This document shows positions 8,027 through 24,276 of a stretch of 64,000 nt of DNA, piece after piece. The notes under the pieces are model-generated. The model ran no database searches. It worked only from the letters and a program-made list of their open reading frames with translations, and was not told where the DNA came from. Within the stretch, counting starts at the first letter, position 1. Each line of letters opens with the position of its first letter. The translations under genes and the position numbers were made by a program. Source of the DNA: Lactiplantibacillus paraplantarum. GTDB taxonomy: Bacteria > Bacillota > Bacilli > Lactobacillales > Lactobacillaceae. The DNA lies in the NCBI RefSeq assembly GCF_003641145.1, contig NZ_CP032744.1:2170001-2234000 (forward strand), read 5' to 3'.

Positions 8027-9148
8027 ATGTCAGTAACCAAACTTAATAATGGTAAATGGCAGGCCCGTGTCTCTTATAAAGATGATGACGGTAACTATAA
8101 GTCGGTTACTCATTTAGAAAAGCGCAAAACTGACGCTGTTGAGTGGGAAACTAAAACTAAAAATGCTCTGCTGGAAGGTGCTGACTTATCACGTAGCACC
8201 GAGAGTCTAAAGCACTACTTTCTTGATTGGATCAGAATTTACAAAACTGACGGCGTATCGCGTCATACCCACGAGCTATATATGGGCAATTGGCGTCACA
8301 TCTCTGCATATTTTAAAGATCGACCTATGAGCGCAATTAAACGGCCGGATTATCAGAAATTTCTGAATGAATTTGGTCGCAGTCATGGAATTGCCACATC
8401 TCACAAACTTCATCAACAAGTACACACCGCAATCAAGGACGCTGTAGCCGATGGTATTCTAAAACGTGACTTTGCTTACAAGGCACACGTCACTGGACGC
8501 CCTCCTAAGCCCGTAGAGGAAAAGTATTTGACGTTGCCCGATTATAAGAAGCTGCGTAAATACCTCATTAAAACGGCTGATTATGACCACATGACTATGC
8601 TGATGATGCTGTTTCAATTAGAAACTGGAACCAGGTTCGAGGAAGCTGCTGGTCTGACGTGGGATAATTTGGATTTGAATAATGGAATAGTTCACATTAA
8701 ACAGCAGTGGGACGCTCGTAGACAGACTTTTCGTCCAACTAAGGGAAATGGACAGGCCGATGGAGATATAACCATAGGACCCGCCTACTGTCGTTTTATG
8801 AGGAGCTATCGTAGCACGCAGAAAGATTATTTAGAATTGCACGAAATGAAGAATCCTAAGAACCTCGTATTTTGGTCTAAACTAGGAAAAATCGTGGGCA
8901 ATGGGAATGCAAACGAAGAGCTAGGACGTATTTGTAACCGTCTAAAGATCAACAAAGTTACAACACACGCCATGAGGCACACACACGCTTCGATTCTTAT
9001 CTTAAATCATGAGTCCCTTCCCTATGTTCAACATCGCCTTCGACATCAAAAACTAGAAACGACCGTTAACACCTACGTCCATCTTATTGAAGAAGAAAAC
9101 GGCGTGTCAGATAAGAAGGCTACCGAGCTAATGGACGAAGGATTTTAA
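8027..9148 (+). CDS. int: Phage-type tyrosine integrase
   Basis: A 373-residue site-specific recombinase. The N-terminal arm-type DNA-binding domain (NGKWQARVSYKDDDGNYKSV) is followed by a SAM-like core-binding domain (about 65-160) and a catalytic domain. Catalytic residues are visible: Arg in LETGTRFEEAAGLTW, H-x-x-R in HAMRHTHASI, then HRLRHQKLETT and the nucleophile in NTYVHL. Length is normal for phage and Tn916-type integrases. GGAGG precedes ATG 8027. Downstream are a strong terminator and, about 230 bp away, the 3' end of tRNA-Glu, the probable attachment site. The other attachment site must lie left of the window. Confidence 0.95.
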   Translation: MSVTKLNNGKWQARVSYKDDDGNYKSVTHLEKRKTDAVEWETKTKNALLEGADLSRSTESLKHYFLDWIRIYKTDGVSRHTHELYMGNWRHISAYFKDRPMSAIKRPDYQKFLNEFGRSHGIATSHKLHQQVHTAIKDAVADGILKRDFAYKAHVTGRPPKPVEEKYLTLPDYKKLRKYLIKTADYDHMTMLMMLFQLETGTRFEEAAGLTWDNLDLNNGIVHIKQQWDARRQTFRPTKGNGQADGDITIGPAYCRFMRSYRSTQKDYLELHEMKNPKNLVFWSKLGKIVGNGNANEELGRICNRLKINKVTTHAMRHTHASILILNHESLPYVQHRLRHQKLETTVNTYVHLIEEENGVSDKKATELMDEGF

Positions 9149-9377: not shown

Positions 9378-9450
9378 TCACCCGCACGGGGATCGAACCC
9401 GTAACTCCGCCTTGAGAGGGCGACGTCTTAACCAATTTGACCAGCGGGCA
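9378..9450 (-). tRNA. tRNA-Glu (anticodon CTC), probable prophage attachment site
   Basis: On the minus strand: acceptor TGCCCGC / GCGGGTG with two G-T pairs, D-arm starting GGTCAAATTGG, anticodon arm TCGCC CTCTCAA GGCGG with anticodon CTC, T-arm ACGGG TTCGATC CCCGT. It resembles Bacillus-type tRNA-Glu. Its 3' end faces the integrase, so the T-arm and acceptor end are the likely attB/attL core (inference from the usual integrase-tRNA layout). No CCA is encoded. Confidence 0.85.
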
Positions 9451-9825: not shown

Positions 9826-9839
9826 TAAATAGTTGTTAT

Positions 9840-9912
9840 TGGGTATTCGCCAAATTGGTAAGGCAGCGGACTCTGAATCCGTAATTTACTGGTTCGAGCC
9901 CAGTATACCCAA
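9840..9912 (+). tRNA. tRNA-Gln (anticodon CTG)
   Basis: Acceptor TGGGTAT / ATACCCA, D-arm with CCAAATTGGTAAGG, anticodon arm GCGGA CTCTGAA TCCGT with anticodon CTG, T-arm ACTGG TTCGAGC CCAGT. The U1-A72 pair is typical of tRNA-Gln. A promoter precedes it and a terminator follows, so it is a single-gene transcript. Confidence 0.9.
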
Positions 9913-9927
9913 TTAGAATTAATGATT

Positions 9928-10688: not shown

Positions 10689-11174
10689 TTAACCTTTTAT
10701 TTCCTTGGTATCTACTAAAACTTTACTGACCATTCGAAGCTCATCAGTTAATTCAGAAGTTCGAATCCGGCCAAATTCATCTAGGAACTTACCGAGGCGT
10801 TCTTCGTTAACTTTTTCAATGACTCGCGCCAATTTTTCCCCTTTCGCGGTCAACGTTAAGTAACGATACCGGCGATCATAAGGATCAATGTTTAGCACAA
10901 TTAAATCATTGTTGATCAAGTAAGTGAGCTTCCTTGAAATCGCTGAAGAAGAAACGTGGCGGTCAGCGGCTAGCTCTTTCACCGTAATTCGGTGATCAGT
11001 GCTATGGTCAAGATAGTAAAGAATCAAGAACTGTTCAAACGACACATCTGCATCAGTCACCATCGTTTGGATAATCTCACGAAGATGGCTTTCGAGCCAG
11101 GACATGCCCACTAAAACTTTCTCGAACAGTTCCGCATCGTCGTACTTGGCTTTTTTGGTATTAGTCTTCATCAT
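10689..11174 (-). CDS. MarR-family transcriptional regulator
   Basis: A protein of about 161 residues with the MarR winged-helix fold: helical start, HTH in ITVKELAADRHVSSSAISRK, and the wing D-P-Y-D-R-R-Y-R-Y-L-T-L-T-A-K-G, a family hallmark. An in-frame ATG at 11192 lacks a ribosome binding site; the start at 11174 has a weak GGGG six to ten bases upstream, so the start is uncertain. It follows the coiled-coil protein gene by a short gap and is probably the last gene of the adhesin transcript. Its proximity makes it a candidate regulator of that locus (inference). Confidence 0.85.
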   Translation of the reverse strand: MMKTNTKKAKYDDAELFEKVLVGMSWLESHLREIIQTMVTDADVSFEQFLILYYLDHSTDHRITVKELAADRHVSSSAISRKLTYLINNDLIVLNIDPYDRRYRYLTLTAKGEKLARVIEKVNEERLGKFLDEFGRIRTSELTDELRMVSKVLVDTKEIKG

Positions 11175-11227
11175 TATTAAAACCCCATTCATGCGTCACG
11201 TTCAAGGCATCATCAACAACCCCGTGA

Positions 11228-13204
11228 TTAGGCACGGACTTCTGCTGCTGGCATCACCGTAATTTCAAGATCACGCGTCATTTGTTTTTCAATCGCAGTC
11301 TGAACATCATGATCCGTCACAACTAAGCTTGACAACTTACTCTTACCGCTAATGATATCCTGAACATGTTGGTTATCCAAATCATCCGCAGATACAATTG
11401 GTAAAAGATGGAAGCTTTCATTGGTTGCTTGCAAACACTGGTCGAATAATGGTGAATTAATGCCCATCACTAACACACTGTTTTGTTGTTGTAAGACTGA
11501 TGCCAACCACCAGTTCAATAATTGAGTTTCAGAATGGAAGACATTCGTAATGGCCTCTTCCTTATTCACTAATTGAATAGATAGTTCATGATTACTACCG
11601 TATTGCTTGACCATTGCTAAAGAGTGGTCCGGACGATAGAAGTTTTCTAAAGTAACTTGCGAGTTATTTGTCCGGTCAAGGTATTGGGTGACAGATAAGA
11701 ACCCAGCAGCATCGTAGACGTCACGTCGAGTAGCCAGTGAACCATTAAAGTATGTCATGTACCAAATAGCACCATTCTTACGATACTTCAACGTCATGAT
11801 TGGCGTCCCACCATCATCGGCAATTGACACAATCTGCTGGTCAGCATTACGTTTATATTGCCATGCTGGATTATCAGGTAATTCTGGCTTAGTCTTCGCA
11901 ACCGCACCCGGAACCTTCGCTTGAATCGTATAGTACATATTATATAATCCGGTACGCTTATCAACGAGTCCAGCCGCTTGATAATTATTCCAAATATCTG
12001 GCAAACTATCATTATAGTTGACAGTAATCACGTTGGCATTATCCTTAACTTCACTCTTCAATAAGCCCATAATCATTTCCATTGAAGCTTTTTCTTCACT
12101 AGATAATGACTGAATCAGGTCCGTGCTGAATAAGAAGTATTTTGCGGACTGATCGAATTCAACGGGTGATACTAAGTGCGTTGTCCCGTAATCCGATTTT
12201 AACTTTGCATCGATTCCTTCAACCTTTTGTTGCAAACCTTTAACAATCGTTGCGTTTTGATCGTAGTCATGTTGTAGCCGATTAATCTTCTGGTTGATCA
12301 AGTTAAGTGAACGTTCCTGTTCGTCTTGGGCACTCTTCTTTTTACGATCATAGGCCACTAACGCATCTTGAGCGGTATGTAAGTCTTTTTCCGCACTCGT
12401 AATCGCGTGTTCTTTCCGCGAACGTTCACGGGTTTCAGTCTGTTCACGTTTCTGGAGTTTCACGAGTTCACTGTTGATTGCGTCACTCTTTTGATACAGG
12501 TCCTGAGCTTGCTTTTCTTGTTGCTTCATCAAAACGAATAACTTCTTCAAGTCTTGTTCGCCTTGAATTGCTTTACGCATATCAGCTTCATTCTGCTTGA
12601 GATCAGCTAATGATTGTTCTGACTGCGTAATCTTCTTTTCTAACGATTTGATGGTCTGATCGCTCTTAGCAAGAGCTTTCTTAGCATCATCATAACGTTT
12701 TTGAGAAGCATTGATGGTCTTAACCATTCCTTGCCGTTCACCATCATTAGTATTAACAACTTTATCCTGCTTAGATAATGTGATCTTAGCATCTTTTAAC
12801 TGCTGTTCTAAGTTTAACTGTTCGGCGACTAAGGTTTCGTACTGTTGCTTTTCGTGCTTACGGTCTTGAACTAATTGAACCTTAAGCTCCCCGCGTAAAG
12901 TTTGGTATTGTTTGTTTAAATCAGCCATTTCACGTTCAATCGCCGCACTGTTCTTTGCCGCCGTTTGGGTAGCACGCCGTTGATTAACCCGGTTTTGACC
13001 CTTAACTGGGGCACTAGTCGAAGCCGTTACGCCACTGCTAGTTGGCCGGACACCGCTAGCCGACCGCACATTGGGGGTCGTGCTACTTTGGGTTGCCTTT
13101 GGTTTTGGCTTTTGAGCAGCAACGGTTGAAGTCGCCGTTGCACGCTCAGAATGATTACGATAATCCTCATTCTTATCTCTGCGCTTTTTATTGAACATCT
13201 TCAT
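11228..13204 (-). CDS. Coiled-coil protein with glycosyltransferase-accessory (GtfB-like) C-terminus
   Basis: A 658-residue protein; ATG 13204 is chosen because GGAGGAGTTGC lies just upstream. Residues 1-110 are basic then low-complexity Thr/Ser/Ala. About 95-340 form a long coiled coil (Gln/Lys/Glu heptads). From about 355 comes a folded domain containing TRRDVYDAAGFLSVTQYLDR and ENFYRPDHSLAM, the same pattern as RRDYYDTRGFLTVAQYFD and ETFFRPN in the GT4 enzyme at 20687. In GtfA/GtfB and TarM-type enzymes that region is the add-on beta domain (DUF1975). No nucleotide-sugar EX7E motif is seen, so this looks like a non-catalytic partner on a coiled-coil stalk. Function is inferred. Confidence 0.6.
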   Translation of the reverse strand: MKMFNKKRRDKNEDYRNHSERATATSTVAAQKPKPKATQSSTTPNVRSASGVRPTSSGVTASTSAPVKGQNRVNQRRATQTAAKNSAAIEREMADLNKQYQTLRGELKVQLVQDRKHEKQQYETLVAEQLNLEQQLKDAKITLSKQDKVVNTNDGERQGMVKTINASQKRYDDAKKALAKSDQTIKSLEKKITQSEQSLADLKQNEADMRKAIQGEQDLKKLFVLMKQQEKQAQDLYQKSDAINSELVKLQKREQTETRERSRKEHAITSAEKDLHTAQDALVAYDRKKKSAQDEQERSLNLINQKINRLQHDYDQNATIVKGLQQKVEGIDAKLKSDYGTTHLVSPVEFDQSAKYFLFSTDLIQSLSSEEKASMEMIMGLLKSEVKDNANVITVNYNDSLPDIWNNYQAAGLVDKRTGLYNMYYTIQAKVPGAVAKTKPELPDNPAWQYKRNADQQIVSIADDGGTPIMTLKYRKNGAIWYMTYFNGSLATRRDVYDAAGFLSVTQYLDRTNNSQVTLENFYRPDHSLAMVKQYGSNHELSIQLVNKEEAITNVFHSETQLLNWWLASVLQQQNSVLVMGINSPLFDQCLQATNESFHLLPIVSADDLDNQHVQDIISGKSKLSSLVVTDHDVQTAIEKQMTRDLEITVMPAAEVRA

Positions 13205-13246
13205 AATGCAACTCCTCCATAAACTTGATTGTTTGCTCAAAGAGTA

Positions 13247-13303: not shown

Positions 13304-16300
13304 TTATGCTTCATGTTTCCGACGAGAAACGCCAAAGTATAGCGCTGAACCCATCAATAAGGTTGAAAGACCCAAGACAGCCAAAGCAGTCCCGTTTTCG
13401 TCTTCATCCGTTTGAGGTAACGTCTTCGCGTCAGAAGTCGTCGTCTTCGTCGTTACAACTGGTTGTAATGATGCGGAAGCAGGAACAACCCCACTCGTAC
13501 CATTGCTAGTTGCAGTCGTGGTTGGCGTTACTTCATCATCAGAAACCGTGGTTGCTGGTGCGGTTGAAGCCGCCGTCGTTGATGAACCAGTGTTGACAGT
13601 GTCATCACTTGGCGTCGTAACAGGGGCAGTAGTCGTGGTACCAGTACCGCCACCATTGACGTTATCACCAGTACCAGGTGCGGTGGTTGGTGCCGTCGTG
13701 ATGGTTCCGCCACCGTTATTACCATTGTCACCAGTACCAGGTGCAGTGGTTGGCGCAGTCGTTGTACCACCATTATCGGTCTTAGAATAAGTTAAAGTAA
13801 TCGTAGCATCATCAGCGACCGTACCAGTCAATGCGCCATCAGCTGACTTGTAAGTGTAGCCATCGATTGTTGGTGTTGCGACCGTGTATGTGTCCCCAAC
13901 TTTGTATGTTGTGGTCGTAGCGGTCTTGATGGTGTTACCATCAGCATCGACATAATTTACCGTAATCGTCTTAGTTTGTTCAGTTGGTGTCGTGCTACCG
14001 TTCTTCGTGTAAACAAGGGTAACTGTGTTACCGTTATATGCAATCGTCCCGGCAATAGCATCACCAGTTGCATGGTCATACGTGTAACCAGCAATTTCTG
14101 GTTGACCGACCGTGTAAGCTTGACCAACGATATATTCAGTTACACTAGACGTCTTGATGGTGTTGCCATCAGCGTCAACGTAATTGATCGTCAAGTTAGC
14201 TTTGTTTTCAACAGGTGTCGTTGAGTCCTTGGTGTAAGTTAAGGTAATGGTCTTATTACCATCAACCGTACCAGTTAAGGCGCCATCAGCTGACTTGTAA
14301 GTGTAACCATCAATGGTTGGCGTCTCAACGGTATAAGTTGAACCGTTGTCCAAGGTTTGGGTCGTCGCCGTCTTAATTGTCTTACCTTCAGCATCAACGT
14401 AGTTTACCGTAATCGTTGATTGTTCGACTGGTGTCGCATCCTTGGTATAAGTTAAGGTAATGGTCTTATTACCATCAACCGTACCAGTTAAGGCACCATC
14501 AGCTGACTTGTAAGTGTAACCATCAATGGTTGGCGTCTCAACGGTATAAGTTGAACCGTTGTCCAAGGTTTGGGTCGTCGCCGTCTTAATTGTCTTACCA
14601 TCAGCATCAACGTAGTTTACCGTAATCGTTGATTGTTCGACTGGTGTCGCATCCTTGGTATAAGTTAAGGTAATCGTCTTATTACCATCAACCGTACCAG
14701 TTAAGGCGCCATCAGCTGACTTGTAAGTGTAACCATCGATGGTTGGCGTCTCAACTTTATAAGTTGAACCGTTGTCCAAGGTTTGGGTCGTCGCCGTCTT
14801 GATCGTCTTACCATCAGCATCAACGTAGTTTACCGTAATCGTTGATTGTTCAACTGGGGCTGCATTCTTAGCGTAAGTTAAGGTAATTGTCTTATTGCCG
14901 TCGTACGTCCCGGTTAAGGAATCACTAGCTGACTTATACGTGTAACCATCAATTGTTGGTTGGTCAATCGTGTAAGTCGTGCCGTTATCACCAGTCGAAG
15001 TAGTTGAATCCTTGATTACATTGCCAGCTTCATCAACGTAATTTACAGTAATGTCAGATTGTTCGACAACTGGAGCATAAACAAAAGTTACTGTATTAGC
15101 GCCAGCAACAAGCGTACCTGCAGCAATGTTTCCTGATTGAACATCACCGTCACCAATCTTGTAACCCGTGTAGGTATAGCCATCAAGACTTGGAGCAGTT
15201 AATTCATACGTACCGCCTGCACGAGTAAAGGTTCCATCAGTACCTTGCGTATACTGGTTGGATGCAGCCACAGTTGATCCATCAGCAGTTTGATAGTTAA
15301 CAACAATACCGGTATTTTCAGCGTATACTAATACAACTTCATTGTTGGTAGCATCCGTATCAACTGTCCCAGTGAGGCCATTTGCATCACCAGTAACATT
15401 ATTGCTTGCACCATAGAGTGCATAGCCATCAATCGTTGCTGGATTAATAGTAAAAGTTGTTCCAACTTTCCCACTCTTAGTTACACCACCGTCAATCTGA
15501 GTATACTTAGGGGTACCATCAGCATTAACACCGGTGATTACAACATACGCCACACTGACATCTGAAGCATCTTCAGCTGGCGTAGTAATCGTCGTGTCTG
15601 TAGTTACATTTGTTGTATAATCCCAACCAATTTGATTTGATCCTGCTGCGGTATCATGAACAGCACGTGGAATATCAGTAAAAGTTAAACCACCATTTGC
15701 AGAACTGCTAGTAGTAGCAGTGTAAACATAATTTAGTTGTAAATAACTGTTGTCCGCAAGTGAGTCAGCGTAAACGACACTTGGCATGCCAGCTGCATCA
15801 TTATCAGTAAGCGTTGTGGTCGTTCCATCAGTAATAACCCCATCAGTTAGTGTATTACCAACTGTATATGATGTTAATTTCCAAGTACCAGTTGCAGAAG
15901 CAACGTTCCCCTTCACTGCAAACGAACCATTAGCGTCTGTCCAATCAACACTAGAATTTTTTGATAGCGTGACTGTGACATCGTAAGTAGTGTCAGCTTC
16001 AGTAGCAAAATTTGTACCATCAACAACGGAATTTACGTTGTCCGCTCCTGCCGCATCTGCATTCTTAACTACTTGACCTTTACCACTAGCTACGGTAGAT
16101 GTAGCTTCTGATGTCGATGCACTAGCCGCTTCAGAAGTAGTTAGTGTTGCTTCACTAGTAACCTTCGGTGTTGCGTCAGATGTAGGTGTAGTGACTGTCG
16201 GAGCTGTTTGTTCAACAGTCGCAGTAGTAGCAACACTAGCAGCTCGTGATTGTACCTTAGCAGAGGTCGCAACAGCAGTTTGCGTAGTGTCATCTTGCTG

Positions 16301-16681
16301 TGCGGCTGAATTTCCGCTCGCTGAAGTAGCACTTTGTGTTGCAACAGTTGCGGTCGAACTGGCAGCACTACTTGAAGATGTTGCTGTTGAACTAGCTGTG
16401 CTTGACGTTGAAGTTGCAGTTGAAGATGCAGAACTGGCATCCGTAGCAGCTGACGAAGTCGTTGCTGAACTAGTTGCAGCTGAACTAGCAGCACTAGAAA
16501 CTTGTTCTGTGTTGGTGTCCGTGTTTGCAGAAGTATCAGCTGAAGCATTAACGTTGGCAAAAACTAAACCAGCAGCTAGAGCTAACGTGGTTGCACCGGC
16601 ATAAACCCAACGTTTACCGTCTTTATACATCTTTACCCGATAAACTGAATCACCGGTCATTTTTTGATTATCTTTTGACAT
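13304..16681 (-). CDS. Serine-rich MucBP adhesin, LPXTG-type anchored
   Basis: A 1125-residue cell-wall protein; ATG 16681 follows GGGGAGGATT. The N-terminus has a KxYKxGKxW signal (VKMYKDGKRWVYAG, then a hydrophobic core ending VFANVNASA). About 45-190 is almost pure Ser/Ala/Thr. A non-repetitive adhesion-like region (about 200-400) follows, then seven MucBP-type repeats of roughly 70 residues (ITVNYVDADGKTIKT...DGYTYKSADG), a Thr/Gly/Pro stalk, and the sorting signal LPQTDE with a membrane helix and RRKHEA tail. LPQTxE is the L. plantarum sortase pattern. Such proteins bind mucin, and serine-rich ones are often O-glycosylated. A GtfB-like gene lies directly downstream; no SecA2/SecY2 genes are seen nearby. 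Confidence 0.9.
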   Translation of the reverse strand: MSKDNQKMTGDSVYRVKMYKDGKRWVYAGATTLALAAGLVFANVNASADTSANTDTNTEQVSSAASSAATSSATTSSAATDASSASSTATSTSSTASSTATSSSSAASSTATVATQSATSASGNSAAQQDDTTQTAVATSAKVQSRAASVATTATVEQTAPTVTTPTSDATPKVTSEATLTTSEAASASTSEATSTVASGKGQVVKNADAAGADNVNSVVDGTNFATEADTTYDVTVTLSKNSSVDWTDANGSFAVKGNVASATGTWKLTSYTVGNTLTDGVITDGTTTTLTDNDAAGMPSVVYADSLADNSYLQLNYVYTATTSSSANGGLTFTDIPRAVHDTAAGSNQIGWDYTTNVTTDTTITTPAEDASDVSVAYVVITGVNADGTPKYTQIDGGVTKSGKVGTTFTINPATIDGYALYGASNNVTGDANGLTGTVDTDATNNEVVLVYAENTGIVVNYQTADGSTVAASNQYTQGTDGTFTRAGGTYELTAPSLDGYTYTGYKIGDGDVQSGNIAAGTLVAGANTVTFVYAPVVEQSDITVNYVDEAGNVIKDSTTSTGDNGTTYTIDQPTIDGYTYKSASDSLTGTYDGNKTITLTYAKNAAPVEQSTITVNYVDADGKTIKTATTQTLDNGSTYKVETPTIDGYTYKSADGALTGTVDGNKTITLTYTKDATPVEQSTITVNYVDADGKTIKTATTQTLDNGSTYTVETPTIDGYTYKSADGALTGTVDGNKTITLTYTKDATPVEQSTITVNYVDAEGKTIKTATTQTLDNGSTYTVETPTIDGYTYKSADGALTGTVDGNKTITLTYTKDSTTPVENKANLTINYVDADGNTIKTSSVTEYIVGQAYTVGQPEIAGYTYDHATGDAIAGTIAYNGNTVTLVYTKNGSTTPTEQTKTITVNYVDADGNTIKTATTTTYKVGDTYTVATPTIDGYTYKSADGALTGTVADDATITLTYSKTDNGGTTTAPTTAPGTGDNGNNGGGTITTAPTTAPGTGDNVNGGGTGTTTTAPVTTPSDDTVNTGSSTTAASTAPATTVSDDEVTPTTTATSNGTSGVVPASASLQPVVTTKTTTSDAKTLPQTDEDENGTALAVLGLSTLLMGSALYFGVSRRKHEA
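14218..14856 (-). repeat. Three tandem 213-bp repeats in the adhesin gene
   Basis: Three near-identical 213-bp units (register marker GTGTCGCATCC at 14431 and 14644) each encode one 71-residue MucBP repeat. They differ from each other at few positions, while the flanking MucBP units are diverged. This points to recent expansion, and the copy number may vary between strains. Confidence 0.85.
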
Positions 16682-16726
16682 ATGGAATCCTCCCCGAGCA
16701 CCCACGATTTTCTGCATTTATGTAAA

Positions 16727-16760
16727 ATGATGGGTGACAAATCGCTTGCCAGCCCATCAT
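16727..16760 (-). terminator. Hairpin between peptide array and adhesin gene
   Basis: ATGATGGG and CCCATCAT enclose an 18-base loop. There is no strong T run after it on the minus strand. It may attenuate read-through from the peptide genes into the adhesin or protect an mRNA end. Confidence 0.4.
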
Positions 16761-16833
16761 CTTAGTCGTGCTTATCGTGTTGTGCTTAATAACACCATTA
16801 CGATTTTGTTGGCATTCAGTTATATTTAACGAA

Positions 16834-16965
16834 TTAGCCCTTAAATGCGGCAATAACGTTTAAGATAAAACTGTGTAATCCACCAAAGATGTCGTTAGAA
16901 ACACTTGATGTATATGATGATGTGTGTGTACCTGGTAAAATATGAAAATCATTGAAAAAGCTCAT
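16834..16965 (-). CDS. Tandem small peptide 1 (43 aa, type A)
   Basis: The last of eight paralogous peptide genes in transcription order. The peptide starts MSFFNDFHILPGTHTSSYTS, continues SVSNDIFGGLHSF and ends ILNVIAAFKG. The N-terminal half is polar and rich in Ser, Thr and His. The C-terminal 18 residues alternate hydrophobic and polar positions like an amphipathic helix. There is no Cys, no double-Gly leader and no Sec signal. Its ribosome binding site (GGGGATTAATCTC) is weaker than in the other copies. It differs from peptide 3 at two positions only. Unknown family. Confidence 0.75.
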   Translation of the reverse strand: MSFFNDFHILPGTHTSSYTSSVSNDIFGGLHSFILNVIAAFKG

Positions 16966-16995
16966 GAGATTAATCCCCTTTAGTTTAGTTAATTA

Positions 16996-17127
16996 TTAGC
17001 CCTTGATGGCTGAGATAACGTTTAATACGAATTGGTAGAAAGTACCAAGTGGTTGGTTGCTGACATAACTAGTATGTGATGACGTATGCGTACCTGGTAA
17101 AAAGTGCAAATCTGAAAAGAAACTCAT
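16996..17127 (-). CDS. Tandem small peptide 2 (43 aa, type B)
   Basis: Shares the start MSFFSDLHFLPGTHTSS with the family, but the middle is HTSYVSNQPLGTFYQF in place of YTSSVSNDIFGGxHSF. It ends VLNVISAIKG. It is nearly identical to peptide 8 (two changes) although five type A genes lie between them. A GGAGGATATACATT leader precedes ATG, and 30 bp separate it from peptide 1. The B form lacks the D-I-F-G-G motif, so the two forms may have different partners or activities. Confidence 0.78.
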   Translation of the reverse strand: MSFFSDLHFLPGTHTSSHTSYVSNQPLGTFYQFVLNVISAIKG

Positions 17128-17205
17128 AATGTATATCCTCCCTCATTATTTAAATAATATCAAGATATTAATTAATAAATTGATTAATTTATTTATCTAA
17201 ATAGA

Positions 17206-17337
17206 TTAACCCTTGATCGCTTTGATAACGTTCAAGATGAAACTATGCAAGCCACCAAAGATATCGTTGGAAACACTTGATGTGTATGATGACGTGTGTG
17301 TACCTGGTAAGATATGGAAATCATTGAAGAAACTCAT
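17206..17337 (-). CDS. Tandem small peptide 3 (43 aa, type A)
   Basis: Type A with the C-terminus ILNVIKAIKG, the most basic tail among the 43-residue members. AGGAGGATTTATATT precedes the start. The spacer to peptide 2 is 78 bp, longer than the usual 30-37 bp and AT-rich, which may hold an RNA processing site. Confidence 0.78.
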   Translation of the reverse strand: MSFFNDFHILPGTHTSSYTSSVSNDIFGGLHSFILNVIKAIKG

Positions 17338-17368
17338 AATATAAATCCTCCTGAAAGATTAGTTAAGA

Positions 17369-17512
17369 TTACTTGCTGAATAAGCCCTTGATTGCTGGAA
17401 TCAAGTTTAAGATGAAGCTGTGGAAACCACCGAAGATGTCGTTGGAAACACTTGATGTGTATGATGATGTATGGGTACCTGGTAAGACGTGGAAATCGTT
17501 AAAGAAACTCAT
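17369..17512 (-). CDS. Tandem small peptide 4 (47 aa, type A, extended)
   Basis: Type A with an extended C-terminus, ILNLIPAIKGLFSK. A proline sits in the putative amphipathic helix and a Leu-Phe-Ser-Lys tail is added. This end resembles short membrane-active peptides. The strong site AGGAGGATTTACATT lies upstream, as in peptides 5 and 6. Confidence 0.78.
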   Translation of the reverse strand: MSFFNDFHVLPGTHTSSYTSSVSNDIFGGFHSFILNLIPAIKGLFSK

Positions 17513-17544
17513 AATGTAAATCCTCCTATAATTGTTTGACTAAA

Positions 17545-17676
17545 TTACTTTTTGAATGCAGCGATCAAGTTCAATACGAAGCTGTGGAAACCACCGAAGA
17601 TATCGTTGGAAACACTTGATGTGTATGATGACGTATGCGTACCTGGTAAGACGTGGAAATCGTTAAAGAAACTCAT
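17545..17676 (-). CDS. Tandem small peptide 5 (43 aa, type A)
   Basis: Type A, N-terminal HVLPGTHTSS and C-terminal GGFHSFVLNLIAAFKK. It differs from peptide 6 by the last residue only (Lys against Asn), so these two are a very recent duplicate pair. The spacer to the next gene is 32 bp. Confidence 0.78.
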   Translation of the reverse strand: MSFFNDFHVLPGTHTSSYTSSVSNDIFGGFHSFVLNLIAAFKK

Positions 17677-17706
17677 AATGTAAATCCTCCTATTTGTTTG
17701 ATTAAA

Positions 17707-17838
17707 TTAGTTTTTGAATGCGGCGATCAAGTTTAATACGAAGCTGTGGAAACCACCGAAGATATCGTTTGATACGCTTGATGTGTATGAAGAAGTATGG
17801 GTACCTGGTAAGACGTGGAAATCGTTAAAGAAACTCAT
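17707..17838 (-). CDS. Tandem small peptide 6 (43 aa, type A)
   Basis: Type A, ending LNLIAAFKN. Compared with peptide 5 the codons differ at several synonymous positions in the S-Y-T-S-S-V-S-N segment while the protein is kept. That argues for selection on the peptide sequence rather than simple recent copying. Confidence 0.78.
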   Translation of the reverse strand: MSFFNDFHVLPGTHTSSYTSSVSNDIFGGFHSFVLNLIAAFKN

Positions 17839-17875
17839 AATGTAGATCCTCCTATAATGTGATTGATTTTTATTA

Positions 17876-18016
17876 TTAGCTAAACAAACTCTTGATTGCA
17901 GGAATCAAGTTTAAGATGAAACTGTGGAAGCCACCAAAAATGTCGTTAGAAACACTTGATGTGTATGATGACGTGTGGGTTCCTGGTAAGAAGTGCAAAT
18001 CAGTAAAGAAACTCAT
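17876..18016 (-). CDS. Tandem small peptide 7 (46 aa, mosaic)
   Basis: The N-terminus TDLHFLPGTHTSS is of the type B kind, while the middle (SYTSSVSNDIFGGFHSF) and the extended tail (LIPAIKSLFS) match type A peptide 4. This looks like a recombinant between family members. AGGAGGAGTTATTC precedes ATG. Confidence 0.78.
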   Translation of the reverse strand: MSFFTDLHFLPGTHTSSYTSSVSNDIFGGFHSFILNLIPAIKSLFS

Positions 18017-18184
18017 GAATAACTCCTCCTTTTTGGTTAATTAATGGTTAGTTCCTCAAGTCTCGATATTGAATCGCGAGACTCGATTAATGGAAAACAA
18101 ATTAAGTTCTGCAAGCTTCGGTTAAGCGGTTAGAAAATTCAACTAATTAATCATCAGCCTCTCTAACACCCGCATCTGGCGATC

Positions 18185-18316
18185 TTAACCCTTAACTGCA
18201 GCAATCACATTCAACACAAACTGATAGAAAGTACCAAGTGGTTGGTTGCTGACATAACTAGTATGTGATGACGTGTGGGTTCCTGGTAAGAAATGTAAAT
18301 CACTGAAGAAACTCAT
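18185..18316 (-). CDS. Tandem small peptide 8 (43 aa, type B, first gene)
   Basis: The first peptide gene after the putative promoter at 18456-18484. Sequence MSFFSDLHFLPGTHTSSHTS, YVSNQPLGTFYQF, VLNVIAAVKG. AAGGAGGATTTGATT precedes ATG. A 168-bp spacer separates it from peptide 7 and holds an inverted repeat (AGTCTCG at 18059-18065, CGAGACT at 18077-18083). The first gene could therefore be made in a different amount from the following seven. Confidence 0.78.
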   Translation of the reverse strand: MSFFSDLHFLPGTHTSSHTSYVSNQPLGTFYQFVLNVIAAVKG

Positions 18317-18455
18317 AATCAAATCCTCCTTAGAAAATTTACAAATCATTCGTTGATTAGTAACACAATTATCAATAATTTAATTTATCCTGTTAAATAA
18401 CTAATATTGATTACTAATGCGAATGTGAAACAAGTAACCTCGTTTACGATTTAAA

Positions 18456-18484
18456 TATTAACTAATTATCCCTACAATCGTCAA
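18456..18484 (-). promoter_or_regulatory. Candidate promoter of the peptide array
   Basis: On the minus strand TTGACG (18484-18479), a 17-bp spacer and TTAATA (18461-18456). It would give a leader of about 130 nt before peptide 8. The surrounding 18320-18600 is very AT-rich and repeats the word TTACTAAT or its complement several times, possibly regulator sites. Confidence 0.5.
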
Positions 18485-18633
18485 TAAAATTACTAATATT
18501 TGAATAAATACAGGGCAGTATCATATTCAATTAGTAAATATACACACTATAGACTACTTACGCGTTTCATTAACGCCCCAAATTTGAGGGCAATATCAAT
18601 ATTATTTATATTTATCACGAGCTAGTCACAGCA

Positions 18634-18872: not shown

Positions 18873-18912
18873 AAAAAAAGTGGTCATTGCCATCGTTCAG
18901 CAATAACCACTT
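18873..18912 (-). terminator. Terminator of the ABC-GT operon
   Basis: On the minus strand AAGTGGTTATTGC pairs with GCAATGACCACTT (one mismatch), followed by seven T residues. It separates the transporter/glycosyltransferase operon from the peptide array, so the two are independent transcripts. Confidence 0.85.
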
Positions 18913-18951: not shown

Positions 18952-20715
18952 CTAACCGTGTTGATATTGCAACCGGTAAAAGTCACGATAACGTTCATGC
19001 GTTGCTAATAAGGATTCATGATCGCCATCTCCAGTAATGCAGCCATCCTCCATAAAGAGAATCCGCGGGTACGCCTCAATTTGATTCAGGCGATGGACAA
19101 TGGTAATGGTCGTCAAGTCAGCTGGTAAGGTCGCCAATAGCTGCGTGACCCGTTCTTGGTTCTGATTATCAAGGCTAGCCGTCGCTTCATCGAGAATCAG
19201 TAACGATGGCTCGCGGACGAGTGCGCGAACAATGGCTAAGCGTTGCCGTTGTCCACCTGAGACATTGAGGCCCCGCTCACCAACATCAGTGTCCAGACCC
19301 GCCGAGAGCTCCGCCAACCAATCGGCCAGACCGACTTGCGTCAATAATGCACTCAACTGTTCATCTGGCACGGCCTGAGTTGACCCTAATAACAGATTGT
19401 CGCGAATTGTTCCTGGCATTAGATCGACTTCCTGACTCACGTAACCAATCTGATTACGAATCGACGGGATTGTATAACTGTCCATTGCCTGACCGTTGAC
19501 GTCCAGATCACCGCGGGTCGGCGTATAATAGGCCTCTAATAACGAGACTAAGGTTGTTTTCCCACTACCGCTCTCACCAATCAAGGCAATTCGTTCACCA
19601 CGGTGGATCGTTAAATCAACGTCCTTGAGTACTGGTTTATCATGTTCATAACCAAAATCAACGTGATCAAAGTCAACCGTATCGATCGTTGTCAATGTTT
19701 CCCCAGATAACCGTTTATCTTCTTCGGGACTATCTAAGATATTATCAATTCGTTCGGTTGCCCCGACCGTTTGTTGGAGTGCCGTTACTAAGCCCGTTAC
19801 GCTACTTAGTGGTGAGATCATTTGGACTGCATACATTAAGAAAGCCACTAAACTTCCAATCGTCAAAGCCTTTGTTTGAACCAAAATACCGCCATAAACA
19901 ATGATAATAAAAATCGCTGCCAACAACATAATGTTAAGGACTGGGTTCAATACAGAAATCAACTTGATTTGGCGAACACTGAAGCCCTTGATCCGATCAA
20001 CTTGATCGCTTCCTTGCTGTTTCAATGCCTTTTCAGCAACCATTGCTTTCACTAACCGGTTTTGTCCAATCATTTGAACCGCAGCACTATTCAAATTGGC
20101 CGTTTCTTTTTGAATCGCTTTGGAAATTCGCGCTAACACTTGCCCCATTGGGACGATAATCACGGCCATTAGTGGGACCACAATCAAAATAATAATCGTT
20201 AAGCGAAAGTTTAATAACAGCATTAACGTTAAGGAACCGATAATCGAAATGATCCCATTGATGGCGTTTGAGAACTGACTGGAAATCAATTCAAAAATCG
20301 TCGACGTATCATTGACCACCCGACTAGACAGTTCCCCCGTCCGATTATGATCAAAATACGGAATTGGTAAATCAACGATATGTTGCCATAGCGCACTACG
20401 TAGCGTTGAGACCGCGTCCACCCCTGTGTAACTGAGCAAGAAGCTCGACGCAACACTTGCAAATAATTGGACGACGATCACGACTGCCAAGCGTCCTAAT
20501 AACTGTCCCGAAGTGCCATGATTAAAAGCATCGATGAATTCTTTCAACATCAACGTAATCCCAAGGCTACAAATCGTGGCGACAAACGACAATAGGATCC
20601 CAACAATGAAGAGCCCCTTCTTTGGGTGGGCATGCGTCATGATCAGTCTTAGCAAATCACGGGTTCCATACTTAGCATGCGGTTGGTTAGCCGATGACGT
20701 GATATGTGTTTCCAT
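18952..20715 (-). CDS. ABC exporter, fused membrane and ATPase domains
   Basis: A 587-residue half-transporter of the MsbA/LmrA type. Six membrane helices lie in about residues 30-320. The ATPase has Walker A GESGSGKTT, signature LNVSGGQRQRLAIVRAL and Walker B LLILDEATASLDN. There is no N-terminal C39 peptidase domain, so it would not cleave double-Gly leaders. Its start lies 29 bp inside the end of the glycosyltransferase gene, so the two are translationally coupled. It is the last gene before a terminator and lies next to the peptide array; export of those leaderless peptides is an attractive but unproven role. A drug exporter is the alternative. Confidence 0.85.
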   Translation of the reverse strand: METHITSSANQPHAKYGTRDLLRLIMTHAHPKKGLFIVGILLSFVATICSLGITLMLKEFIDAFNHGTSGQLLGRLAVVIVVQLFASVASSFLLSYTGVDAVSTLRSALWQHIVDLPIPYFDHNRTGELSSRVVNDTSTIFELISSQFSNAINGIISIIGSLTLMLLLNFRLTIIILIVVPLMAVIIVPMGQVLARISKAIQKETANLNSAAVQMIGQNRLVKAMVAEKALKQQGSDQVDRIKGFSVRQIKLISVLNPVLNIMLLAAIFIIIVYGGILVQTKALTIGSLVAFLMYAVQMISPLSSVTGLVTALQQTVGATERIDNILDSPEEDKRLSGETLTTIDTVDFDHVDFGYEHDKPVLKDVDLTIHRGERIALIGESGSGKTTLVSLLEAYYTPTRGDLDVNGQAMDSYTIPSIRNQIGYVSQEVDLMPGTIRDNLLLGSTQAVPDEQLSALLTQVGLADWLAELSAGLDTDVGERGLNVSGGQRQRLAIVRALVREPSLLILDEATASLDNQNQERVTQLLATLPADLTTITIVHRLNQIEAYPRILFMEDGCITGDGDHESLLATHERYRDFYRLQYQHG

Positions 20716-22264
20716 TGGTTGTAACTCCCCTCATTGCTTGAATATCTGGCTGAACAACTTGATCATTCCAGCGTTGCCAAATCATCGCTTCTGAAAAGCG
20801 ACTGCTATTGCCATACGCACGTTCACTCATTTGTGCCAATTGCTTTGGGTTTTGCAATAACGCCAAAATCACCTTACCAAGTTCGACTAAGTTATTCGGC
20901 GTAATTAGACGCCCATTTTGACCATCATTAATCATCGTCGCTGGTCCATACTTGATGTCGTAAGCGACTACCGGCACGCCATGACTCAGCCCTTCCAAAA
21001 TACCTAAGTTAAACCCCTCATACTGGCTAGTCAAGACCATCAGTTGGGCCTGATTGTAAACAGGCGTTAAATCACGTTCAAAACCTTTAAACGTGATAAA
21101 TGATTGCCAGTGTTGCGAACTAACTAGTGCTCGTAACCGATTTTCTTCTTTAAATCCAGTCCACGAATCACCATAACCATAAATATCTAGCGTCACGTTT
21201 GATTGTTTTTCGTGAACATAAGCGACAGCCTTGATTAATTGCTCTAGATTTTTTTCAGCTGACAACCGCGCAACCGCAATAACCTTACCAGCAGTCCGAT
21301 CACCAAAGTCAACTGGCCGTGTGGCTAATTGCTCATCGCTCACACTGCCAACTGGGATCGCCAAAGTTGGAATCACATTATGAATATGGTTTGTCATGTC
21401 GTCACACTCTTCTTGCGTTGACATAATCAAGCCCGCCATCTGATTCGCATGATCTAAACCAATCTGGGTGTATGGCACAATTGGTGAGTTGACAACGTCA
21501 AGTGGATCCAGCGTGAAATTACTGTGTAAAAATTCATACTTGCGGGCTAATGTCGTCATTTTAACTATTGGATTCATCCCCGCATCACTGCGATCCACGA
21601 TCATCGTCCCATGACCACCATATTCCGTATTCAATGCGTCTAAGAAAAACGCCGTTAACTGATCCCAATCTTCAAATTCATAATTGTGACCATGATAGTT
21701 TAAGAGGCGCTGGTGCGTAGCGACCGGTTGTTGCTTCTCGTTCGGCCGAAAGAATGTCTCTAAAACGGGTTGTTGTTGTAAATTGCAATGTTGCTCTAAC
21801 ACAATATTCTGCTTGTCATCAAAATACTGCGCCACCGTTAAGAACCCCCGCGTGTCATAGTAGTCACGTCGGCTAACTGCGCCTTGAGGATTGAGAATAT
21901 CAACGTAATCAATATTACCTTGCGCATTCAGCATCAAAGCCTTTTGACGTTGTTCCCGTTGGATCACATCAAATTCATTGGCACTGACCCGTTCCAAAGT
22001 TTCACCCGTCACCCGCGGGTAGTTAGCGGCTGTCAATGGTTGACCCTCATAATTCGTAGTCCCTTGAAAATAATCATACATATTGACTTGAAATTCGTCA
22101 TCATAACCGATCTGATGCATATTTTGGTGCAAGTCCCGCACAAAGTTACGGGTCACGATCAACGCGGGTACCCGATGCTTTGTGAATAACTTTTGACGCT
22201 GAATCATGGCTAATTCAATAGCCGATGGCGTCGAATCAATTTTACTTGTAATAAAGAAATACAT
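20687..22264 (-). CDS. GT4 glycosyltransferase, GtfA/TarM/TagE-like
   Basis: A 525-residue retaining glycosyltransferase. The N-terminal part contains the add-on beta domain of the GtfA/TarM group (RRDYYDTRGFLTVAQYFDD, ETFFRPNEK). The C-terminal GT-B half has the donor-site pattern IAVARLSAEKNLEQLIKAV and the E-x7-E motif in YEGFNLGILEGLSHG. Family members glucosylate teichoic acid (TagE), add GlcNAc to wall teichoic acid (TarM), or start O-glycosylation of serine-rich proteins (GtfA). The gene is between two ABC transporter genes in one operon, 17 bp after the first. Given the serine-rich adhesin and the Ser/Thr-rich peptides next door, a protein or peptide substrate is plausible; teichoic acid remains possible. 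Confidence 0.85.
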   Translation of the reverse strand: MYFFITSKIDSTPSAIELAMIQRQKLFTKHRVPALIVTRNFVRDLHQNMHQIGYDDEFQVNMYDYFQGTTNYEGQPLTAANYPRVTGETLERVSANEFDVIQREQRQKALMLNAQGNIDYVDILNPQGAVSRRDYYDTRGFLTVAQYFDDKQNIVLEQHCNLQQQPVLETFFRPNEKQQPVATHQRLLNYHGHNYEFEDWDQLTAFFLDALNTEYGGHGTMIVDRSDAGMNPIVKMTTLARKYEFLHSNFTLDPLDVVNSPIVPYTQIGLDHANQMAGLIMSTQEECDDMTNHIHNVIPTLAIPVGSVSDEQLATRPVDFGDRTAGKVIAVARLSAEKNLEQLIKAVAYVHEKQSNVTLDIYGYGDSWTGFKEENRLRALVSSQHWQSFITFKGFERDLTPVYNQAQLMVLTSQYEGFNLGILEGLSHGVPVVAYDIKYGPATMINDGQNGRLITPNNLVELGKVILALLQNPKQLAQMSERAYGNSSRFSEAMIWQRWNDQVVQPDIQAMRGVTTNGNTYHVIG

Positions 22265-22281: not shown

Positions 22282-24276
22282 TTATTCATGTGATAAACTC
22301 TCAACTGGATCTAATCGTGCAGCCATGTGTGCTGGTGCCAAAGCTGCCAACAAACTGATTACAACACTGACCGTGATGCCACCTAGCATTGCTGCCCCTG
22401 AAATTCGAACAATTGGATACTTGATTAAACTATAAATCGCCATATTGCCTAAGAATTGCCACCCTTCACCAAACAGTAATCCCATAATCGCTGCTAATAC
22501 CCCAATAGTTAGAGCCTCAGCAAAGAACAAATGACTAATATCGCGTTTACGGGCGCCAAGCGCTCGCAGTACCCCGATTTCACGAGTCCGTTCAGAAACA
22601 CTAACGTATAAGACAACGATGATCATAATTGCCGAGACCAATAAAGCAATGCCAGCCACGCCAGTCAATACGTTAGTGGCTAAACGAATATAGGTATTCA
22701 ATGAATCAATTAAATCACCGATTCCAGTGTAGTTATACTGTTGTTTCTTATTAGTCCCCTTGATGGCCTTGATGTTGTGTTCAACTTGCTTAACATGCGC
22801 CAGTTTGTCAATCTGGACAATGGCAAAGTTTGGCCGGTAAGCCACGTTCTTAGCCGCCAACATCTTTTTAACCGTTTGGGGCAAAACAACAACACTTGTA
22901 TCATCGCTACCAGTAATCCCACTAACGGTTAATGTCTGCTTGACCGTTACGGATTGATTCTTGCGATTAACCGTTGTCAACTTAACTGTCAATTTTTTAT
23001 GAAGTGCTTTTTGATAATGCTTTTTGCCCATCATCTTCTTGGCTAACTTGCGACCAATTAAGACTTGGTCAGTGCCCGGGCGCGACCCATTCTTAATGGT
23101 TTTACTCAAAATTGTCGGGTTATCCGTCTGGAGACTTGCCGTCACCGTTGTTTTTTGATAATTAGCCTGAGTACTCGTATAATAGCCTAACTTAGCGGAC
23201 TTAACATGCTTGATAGCTGCTAACTGTTTGGCATTAGCAGTTGTCACTTCAGCGTTCTTAGCCGCTGTGACTTGTTCTTGATTAACTGCAGCCTTGTAAG
23301 CTGCCGCACTTGTCGCTTTTTTACGCGCAGACGTGCTGACCTTCCCCGTCTTCTTTGAAACTTGCACAGCGGTTGGATTGACCTGCGACGTAATCTGGTG
23401 ATTCATATAATTTTGGATCCCTGATCCTAAGCCAAGCATCACAACGATACTACTGATTCCAATCGATGATCCAAAAATAATCAGTAAGTAACGGAGCCAC
23501 ATCCGGCGCATATGCTGCATTGACATCCGGAACATCTGTCGAAAACCAAGGGTCCGATAACGAGTTGGCTGTTTATCGACCACATCGAACGGAGCCCCAA
23601 TCACTAATTCATCATGAATTTGGCCATCATCTAAATGAACAATGCGTGTCCCGTAATCAGCAACTTCTTGCGAATGAGTCACCGTAATGACGAGTTTTCC
23701 TTCTGCGGCGATCGAATATAAAATATCCATCACTTCTTGGGTGTTTTCACTATCTAAAGCCCCCGTTGGTTCGTCCGCAATGATAATATCGGGATCACTC
23801 GCCAGTGCTCGGGCAATCGCGACCCGTTGTTTCTGACCACCCGACAGTTCATTTGGATACTGGTGGGTCTGCTGTTCAAGCCCCACCCGTTTGAGCAAGT
23901 CTTGTGCCTGTTGAACCTGCTGCCCACGAGACATCTTGGTCATCTTCAGTGAGAGCATAACGTTATCCAAGACGGTTAGATAACTGACCAAGTTAAAGTT
24001 TTGAAAAATAAAGCCAATGGTTTCACGCCGGTACCGGTCCATTTGCCGCACATTCATTGAGCGCAAGGACTGACCGTCTAATAAGACGTCCCCATCATAA
24101 TGATGGTCCAAACCACCAATAATGTTCATCAGTGTTGACTTACCGCCACCGGACTCCCCAAGAATCGAAATAAACTCTCCCCGTTCAAAGTTTAAGTTAA
24201 TGCCCTTTAAGATGACATTTTCTTGGTGATTTAAGGTATAGGCCTTACGAATATCGTGTAATTCTAAAAAGCTCAT
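22282..24276 (-). CDS. MacB-type ABC transporter (ATPase fused to FtsX-like permease)
   Basis: A 664-residue protein. The N-terminal ATPase (1-230) has Walker A GESGGGKST, signature NELSGGQKQRVAIARAL and Walker B DIIIADEPTGALDSEN. A first membrane helix (about 265-290) is followed by an extracytoplasmic region rich in Lys, Ala and Thr (about 300-510), then three C-terminal helices of the FtsX type (LLVSAIMIIVVLYVSVSERT, TREIGVLRALGA). MacB-like proteins act as mechanotransducers for peptide resistance, lipoproteins or bacteriocin self-protection rather than classical transport. As first gene of the operon with the GT4 enzyme and the ABC exporter, it could provide immunity or export for the peptide array (inference). 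Confidence 0.88.
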   Translation of the reverse strand: MSFLELHDIRKAYTLNHQENVILKGINLNFERGEFISILGESGGGKSTLMNIIGGLDHHYDGDVLLDGQSLRSMNVRQMDRYRRETIGFIFQNFNLVSYLTVLDNVMLSLKMTKMSRGQQVQQAQDLLKRVGLEQQTHQYPNELSGGQKQRVAIARALASDPDIIIADEPTGALDSENTQEVMDILYSIAAEGKLVITVTHSQEVADYGTRIVHLDDGQIHDELVIGAPFDVVDKQPTRYRTLGFRQMFRMSMQHMRRMWLRYLLIIFGSSIGISSIVVMLGLGSGIQNYMNHQITSQVNPTAVQVSKKTGKVSTSARKKATSAAAYKAAVNQEQVTAAKNAEVTTANAKQLAAIKHVKSAKLGYYTSTQANYQKTTVTASLQTDNPTILSKTIKNGSRPGTDQVLIGRKLAKKMMGKKHYQKALHKKLTVKLTTVNRKNQSVTVKQTLTVSGITGSDDTSVVVLPQTVKKMLAAKNVAYRPNFAIVQIDKLAHVKQVEHNIKAIKGTNKKQQYNYTGIGDLIDSLNTYIRLATNVLTGVAGIALLVSAIMIIVVLYVSVSERTREIGVLRALGARKRDISHLFFAEALTIGVLAAIMGLLFGEGWQFLGNMAIYSLIKYPIVRISGAAMLGGITVSVVISLLAALAPAHMAARLDPVESLSHE

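Follow-up and report, generated by a model that had tools for sequence, protein, structure and literature searches.

A conserved tandem array of small, surface-active-looking peptides in Lactiplantibacillus, probably made in bulk for the cell exterior

The window analysed here, a stretch of 64,000 nucleotides of the Lactiplantibacillus paraplantarum genome, carries eight tandem genes for peptides of 43–47 residues, members of a family that is encoded in 12 of the 21 Lactiplantibacillus genomes compared, the window's own included. The family is uncharacterised, and its small, surface-active-looking peptides are probably bulk products destined for the cell exterior. New elements of this description are the distant 40-residue relatives in Convivina and (probably) Eupransor, located next to an exporter of the same subfamily as that of the window, as well as the existence of two peptide classes, a conserved and genome-unique block in the promoter region, and codon usage of the highly expressed type. 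Lactiplantibacillus serves as a model in the study of food fermentation and probiotics, and within the searches made this conserved multi-copy family is without a described function.

The eight small minus-strand ORFs annotated earlier at 16834..18316 are all intact. Along the direction of transcription they are S1 (18185..18316, 43 aa), S2 (17876..18016, 46 aa), S3 (17707..17838, 43 aa), S4 (17545..17676, 43 aa), S5 (17369..17512, 47 aa), S6 (17206..17337, 43 aa), S7 (16996..17127, 43 aa), and S8 (16834..16965, 43 aa), where S1 and S7 belong to class B and the other six to class A of the division described below. An in-frame ATG further upstream of S1 would give 54 residues; the ribosome-binding site favours the start at 18316. 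The first-pass annotation counted seven strong AGGAGGA-type ribosome-binding sites, which is slightly generous, since the full AGGAGG is present in six of the eight genes, while S7 has GGGAGGA and S8 has AAAGGGGA. It also treated the MSFF-x-D start and the LPGTHTSS block as invariant, which is correct for the window's eight peptides with their 26 invariant columns (including MSFF, D6, LPGTHTSS, VSN, F33, L35, and K42) but not for the genus, where the starts MGFF, MGIF, and MSWF occur, D6 is replaced by N or S, and LPGTHTSS becomes LPGTHTAS in some peptides. The claim of a protein conserved despite varied synonymous codons withstood the dN/dS comparison: dN was below dS in all 24 computable pairs out of 28, with ratios of about 0.02–0.52 that are noisy because the NG86 method was applied to some 43 codons per pair, and dS was saturated in the other four. 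Judged by these substitutions, the window array is under purifying selection. The 3.37-Mb genome itself contains exactly these eight copies and none other at E up to 1. Chance is excluded as the origin of the ORFs by their recurrence in 12 of the 21 genomes, in tandem wherever the contig allows. Between positions 16600 and 19000 no Rfam model matched at E up to 1, and a hairpin between S1 and S2 was dropped as a conserved element, its conservation not being clear.

The absence of Cys, of a double-Gly leader, and of a Sec-type N-terminus, noticed on first reading, was borne out in the peptides. Lys and Arg are missing from the first 15 residues, and Ser, Thr, and Asn make up 50–56% of residues 11–26 in the window's eight, whose net charge (K+R minus D+E) is −1 to 0 in every case; the Convivina peptide computed has a net charge of +1. 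No segment of transmembrane grade was found, the best 19-residue hydropathy being 0.67–1.34 in the window's eight and 0.53–1.34 in the 10 peptides computed. The C-terminus, formerly described as amphipathic, is hydrophobic and weakly amphipathic, but its helical moment is only modest, and amphipathicity counts as weak evidence because 3–21% of shuffles reach the C-terminal moment of the window's eight peptides.

Two classes, distinguished after the sequences had been seen, differ at residue 31, two positions before the conserved F33, which is His in class A and Tyr in class B. At residue 18, Tyr is present in 39 of 44 class-A peptides and His in 15 of 17 class-B peptides, these class counts covering 62 of the 63 distinct sequences with one of these peptides unclassified. 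Exactly two class-B copies stand beside six to eight class-A copies in each of the seven gap-free arrays, which share species ancestry and thus are not seven independent events. The order of the copies is BAAAAABA (three arrays), BAAAAAABA, ABBAAAAAA, BBAAAAAAAA, and ABAAAAABAA, so that the B positions differ among arrays. Readable class-B copies in incomplete arrays numbered two in xiangfangensis, two in pingfangensis, two in herbarum, one in an uncultured MAG, and none in garii. In all seven gap-free arrays, similarity over the 20 bases preceding class-A genes is higher within an array (0.53–0.77) than between arrays (0.47–0.53), the script for spacers and codons having recovered nine of 10 fabifermentans and seven of 10 plajomi units; this similarity fits repeated local duplication or conversion. 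Selection for "dosage or diversity", as proposed initially, may be narrowed to dosage with two conserved classes, given the purifying selection, the highly-expressed-type codons, and the within-array spacer similarity.

The profile search of Lactobacillaceae suggested in the first-pass annotation detected the family in Lactiplantibacillus and beyond. Eleven loci came from named records (L. herbarum, EGD-AQ4, daoliensis, fabifermentans, pingfangensis, plajomi, xiangfangensis, garii, and the uncultured MAG), which largely share assemblies with the count of 12 in 21 genomes, making the two counts not independent. The gap-free arrays hold eight copies in the window's own genome, EGD-AQ4, and G012, nine in G015 and daoliensis, and 10 in fabifermentans and plajomi; of the remaining five, that of xiangfangensis is interrupted by a stretch of N and the others stop at contig ends. 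L. herbarum additionally has one divergent orphan peptide gene away from its array (L081:7921-8055, MGIYIFWKAGLPTTSS...), and comparison with the module genes recognised no ABC transporter in the 12 kb around it. Outside the genus, convincing matches were obtained in two genera, g7 and g39, with two genomes each, in overlapping family-wide samples of 301 and 397 genomes; g7 is Convivina and g39 is probably Eupransor. Other family-wide matches outside these three genera (E about 0.001–0.1) are likely due to chance, the one read being G023 with E 0.036. Relatives of the peptides from metagenomes are P0051–P0053.

The array is embedded in a module, all on the minus strand, with the order MacB664, GT525, ABC587, peptides, adhesin, CC670, and MarR. 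MacB664 (22282..24276) is a MacB/FtsX-type ABC protein, the ATPase part of which resembles the putative bacteriocin-export ABC family TIGR03608 below its cut-off. GT525 (20687..22264) is an SdgA/SdgB/GtfA-like glycosyltransferase, resembling the SdgA/SdgB/GtfA models below NCBIfam cut-offs and the solved Gtf1 and TarM. ABC587 (18952..20715), the proposed peptide exporter, is BmrA/MsbA-like with fused Pfam ABC_membrane and ABC_tran domains; no peptidase domain was found in it, and its best PDB match is BmrA. On the other side of the peptides lie the adhesin (13304..16717), with a KxYKxGKxW signal, a Ser/Thr-rich region, MucBP repeats, and an LPXTG anchor, the GtfB-like coiled-coil protein CC670 (11228..13240), and a MarR-family regulator (10689..11192), which ends the module in named loci. 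The C-terminal part of CC670 resembles the N-terminal half of GT525 over a shared stretch of 60 columns (40% identity, E 4e-7), and to judge by such similarities the pair probably serves the adhesin. This adhesin may correspond to the WCFS1 adhesin lp_2486, a guess from gene order. The name lp_2486 occurs for a WCFS1 adhesin in passages of PMC4572922, PMC7677277, and PMC9159523.

The module is complete in four of the 11 named loci, represented by its upstream half in three and by its downstream half in four, always in the same order. ABC587 or an orthologue is present in all 12 genomes with peptides (80–96% identity in the 11 beyond the window's own) and in none of the other nine, whereas paralogues reach 35–37% and matches at the same threshold span 20 of the 21 genomes overall. 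CC670 is limited to the same 12 genomes (43–96% identity, in G014 covered over residues 301–666 only), which also have the GT525 orthologue (61–96%, paralogues 37% or less). MacB664, the adhesin, and MarR were compared in the fetched loci, where MacB664 stands first in the module in all seven named loci reaching that side, with 78–92% identity. Relatives of CC670 in genus g34 gave no peptide match in the three loci read (best E 0.13, in L078). An integrase-like gene, recognised by eye, adjoins the module at 8027–9148 of the window near tRNA-Glu (9378–9450) and tRNA-Gln (9839–9913); a counterpart with 99% identity is located past the module in L. herbarum L019 (7552–8673, same place) and in L172, and was not seen in the other viral loci.

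Upstream of S1 a conserved promoter-region block extends over 18412..18575 (minus strand), with a candidate −35 TTGACG (18484–18479) and −10 TAATAT (18460–18455). Its 30-nt windows are 0.73–0.92 conserved in the 11 of 11 leaders aligned, against a leader mean of 0.46, and even with three mismatches allowed, each of its two core patterns has a single occurrence in the genome. The imperfect palindrome AAACRAG-GTTA-CTTGTTT (18428..18445, minus strand) is conserved in the leaders as well and is a candidate operator, at which MarR may be guessed to act. Promoter-like hexamers were not enriched over shuffles (eight found, 11 expected), nor was the bare palindrome with up to three mismatches commoner in the window than by chance (seven found, 6.3 expected), so that the weight of these candidates comes from conservation among leaders and not from enrichment. 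A terminator-like stem-loop after ABC587 (18878..18912, minus strand; one found, 1.2 expected in shuffles) separates this gene from the array, and other leaders show by eye a differently written stem at the matching site. Another stem-loop, between array and adhesin (16723..16764, minus strand), possibly ends the array transcript; the array–adhesin interval folded in eight loci had a strong stem near its end each time. The peptide genes carry codon usage of the highly expressed type. For F, N, I, H, and Y, the share of codons ending in C is 71% in the pooled peptide genes; five neighbours reach 30–42% (Fisher p at most 1e-5) and pgi 59% (p 0.09). The eight copies tested lack independence from one another, and the choice of these five amino acids was made with the counts already seen.

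The relatives in Convivina (two tandem copies) and probable Eupransor (three) are 40 residues long, have their own ribosome sites, and immediately precede the gene of an ABC exporter from the ABC587 subfamily; each Eupransor gene ends by eye in a terminator-like stem. No other module gene was found by blastp beside these units in the 17–18 kb read. In a first tree of 30 exporters, for which two of 29 loci gave no usable ORF and four more matches had no locus, the peptide-adjacent ABC proteins and ABC587 grouped at 100/99, apart from other exporters of the same genomes, with a program warning of long branches. The wider clade kept its 100/99 support in a second, 18-row tree that included five exporters of other genera. 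As far as these phylogenies go, there is good support for a common exporter subfamily of the peptide-adjacent ABCs, whereas strict co-descent of the peptides with their pump lacks such support: in the second tree the strict six-row clade of peptide ABCs was rejected (p-AU 0.03) and the Convivina and Eupransor pumps grouped with two from genus g13 (98/95). In Convivina, the peptide-adjacent ABC protein is not the best match to ABC587, scoring 266 bits where another one scores 353. Nine further high-scoring ABCs (g4, g11, g13, and g14) had no neighbouring peptide match better than E 0.62. Small ORFs were viewed by eye beside four of these nine, and the single lead is in G032 of genus g13, where a 31-aa ORF with a good ribosome site (L167:6116-6211, plus strand), starting MSFSNVLHFILNILG, lies beside the ABC gene (profile of alignment A4, E 0.62); as a relative of the peptides it is a lead only. 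A second small ORF of 26 aa, also with a good ribosome site (L167:8209-8289, minus strand), lies on the other side of this same-subfamily exporter; the other two g13 loci have no such small ORF.

The first reading passed over the exporter, the promoter block, and the existence of a wider family. The family was not recognised on first reading, and it is indeed without a Pfam or NCBIfam model, but PHROG_32203, a family of unknown function, does match. None of 24 peptides (alignment A3) matched any Pfam model at E up to 10, a search in which HMMER filters drop most weak matches and very remote kinship could escape, and none of 10 (alignment A4) matched NCBIfam, whereas all 10 peptides tested matched PHROG_32203 (best E 1.8e-33). 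The single match among solved structures, a viral capsid peptide at E 0.066, was taken as chance. The identity of a phage protein was rejected, since the peptides are absent from 50,697 phage and 72,556 plasmid records, and the viral-contig loci appear as prophage edges running into the chromosomal module. In all 10 of these loci, on nine contigs (L171–L180), no more than 1.3 kb lies between the array and a contig end, and nine of the 10 also include the adhesin, CC670, and MarR genes; apparently, over-extended prophage calls explain the PHROG_32203 label best. In the nine module-bearing records the adhesin ORF is split in four and CC670 in three, with peptide ORF lengths kept (over all 10 loci, 30 of 31 have a length of 43 or 47 aa, and the remaining one is truncated at a contig end), which suggests that the peptides are independent of an intact adhesin system. 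The split genes, present as two or more ORFs in records L172, L173, L174, L177, L179, and L180, are possibly due to strain-level decay or phase variation. Source names, where shown, are "hypothetical protein" or "uncharacterized protein". In the main texts searched, LPGTHTSS was not found, and none of the papers found on tandem or leaderless peptides, PSM-like peptides, ribosome profiling, and Convivina or Eupransor describes the family.

Taken jointly, these data are read tentatively, with confidence a little short of even, as leaderless amphipathic peptides that are made in bulk, exported by ABC587, and act outside the cell like beta-PSMs. The array would be transcribed from its own promoter in the conserved upstream block, giving large amounts of peptide, which the dedicated BmrA/MsbA-type pump ABC587 would carry out without a leader and without processing; at the cell surface or matrix, beside the adhesin of the locus, they would then act as surface-active or self-assembling amphipathic peptides. 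Co-assembly of classes A and B, which might follow, is the least supported step. Leaderless export with an outside, surface-active role is the simplest reading of the peptide features and the co-occurring exporter. The reading is favoured by ABC587 orthologues in exactly the peptide genomes, by the peptide–exporter adjacency in Convivina and Eupransor without adhesin or glycosyltransferase, by the C-ending codons and the conserved upstream block, and by purifying selection. The modest C-terminal moment, the rejected strict clade, the higher-scoring Convivina ABC, and the L. herbarum orphan without an ABC in the 12 kb read count against it. A bolder version, in which Lactiplantibacillus and the two smaller genera form an extracellular film, fibre, or coat from leaderless bulk peptides, and in which that of Lactiplantibacillus mixes the two classes at two B to six to eight A by gene number, is exported by the dedicated ABC protein, and lies with a glycosylated adhesin, is unlikely; if true, it would mean that bacteria of foods and probiotics possess a surface system resembling that of PSMs.

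Among the alternatives, a multi-peptide leaderless bacteriocin, in which A and B act on competitors, ABC587 exports them, and the MacB-type ABC confers self-protection, is somewhat unlikely. The two conserved classes in each gap-free array, the adjoining exporter, and the TIGR03608-like ATPase part of MacB664, although below the cut-off, are in line with it, but the near-zero or negative charge, the lack of matches in the phage and plasmid collections, and the strict conservation among species speak against a cationic leaderless bacteriocin as first choice, leaving it as a rival; moreover, no small immunity-like gene was recognised in the window module, and no MacB gene adjoins the Convivina and Eupransor units. 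An extracellular signal, with whole or cut peptides sensed by the cells to report density, would make use of the module's dedicated exporter and regulator; it is improbable, as no receptor kinase or peptide-binding regulator was recognised in the conserved module, and eight to 10 near-identical copies of 43–47 aa are generally unusual for a pheromone.

Peptides that have no relation to the exporter and stay in the cell or its membrane, for instance as small hydrophobic proteins resembling type I toxins, also have little probability: tandem small hydrophobic ORFs and an orphan copy with no ABC nearby would suit them, but strong ribosome sites, highly-expressed-type codons, the missing transmembrane-grade segment, and an exporter nearby in three genera would not. 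It is hardly more credible that the peptides are substrates or helpers of the glycosylation and adhesin genes next to them, their Ser/Thr-rich middle being glycosylated by GT525/CC670 and the peptide coating or folding the adhesin. The Ser/Thr/Asn content of residues 11–26 and the company of GT525 and CC670 in 12 of 12 genomes would suit this, but no glycosyltransferase gene was recognised beside the Convivina and Eupransor peptides, and in the viral-contig records peptide ORF lengths are unchanged where the adhesin (four of nine) or CC670 (three of nine) is split. Returning to the reading of exported surface-active peptides, their secretion could explain surface, biofilm, adhesion, or immune effects that are now credited to the adhesin alone, and the question of exporter cargo is readily testable with the compact unit of peptide genes and exporter found in Convivina and Eupransor.

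Both analogies drawn initially, to phenol-soluble modulins (PSMs) and to leaderless bacteriocins, can be weighed against known systems. Leaderless multi-peptide bacteriocins of the aureocin A70 and garvicin KS types are typically cationic. They are alike in being leaderless and in having several related small peptides with ABC genes nearby, and unlike in charge, that of the window peptides being −1 to 0; this analogy fits less well, as the peptides are not cationic and none occurs in the phage and plasmid collections. The adhesin glycosylation systems GtfA/GtfB, SdgA/SdgB, and Gtf1 resemble GT525, to which CC670 is related over one stretch, and explain the neighbours, not the peptides. PHROG_32203 is the same sequence family, filed as phage, and here it lies in a chromosomal module. 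TMcins, as the relevant passages of PMC12328743 present them, are membrane-active small peptides of Gram-positive bacteria with ABC genes, which is the likeness; they differ in having a leader and a protease for their maturation, and in carrying a disulfide and an N-terminal transmembrane helix. Their identity with the peptides was rejected, since these have no Cys or transmembrane-grade segment; among the module genes, moreover, none was recognised as a protease. In shape, the analogy to PSMs holds, with no leader, near-neutral charge, a hydrophobic C-terminus, and a co-inherited ABC exporter. The beta-PSMs of staphylococci are leaderless, near-neutral peptides of about 44 aa encoded by tandem gene copies, and Pmt is a multi-gene ABC system. 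The exporter here is, in contrast, a single BmrA/MsbA-type protein, with eight to 10 peptide copies in two classes and an adhesin module alongside; the residues differ, and none of the 24 peptides matches the PSM-type Pfam families. PSMs have their own transport system (PMC5080381). Kinship with beta-PSMs is not supported, and the likeness, which lies in size, tandem copies, lack of a leader, near-neutral charge, and a candidate exporter of their own, would be one in manner of working.
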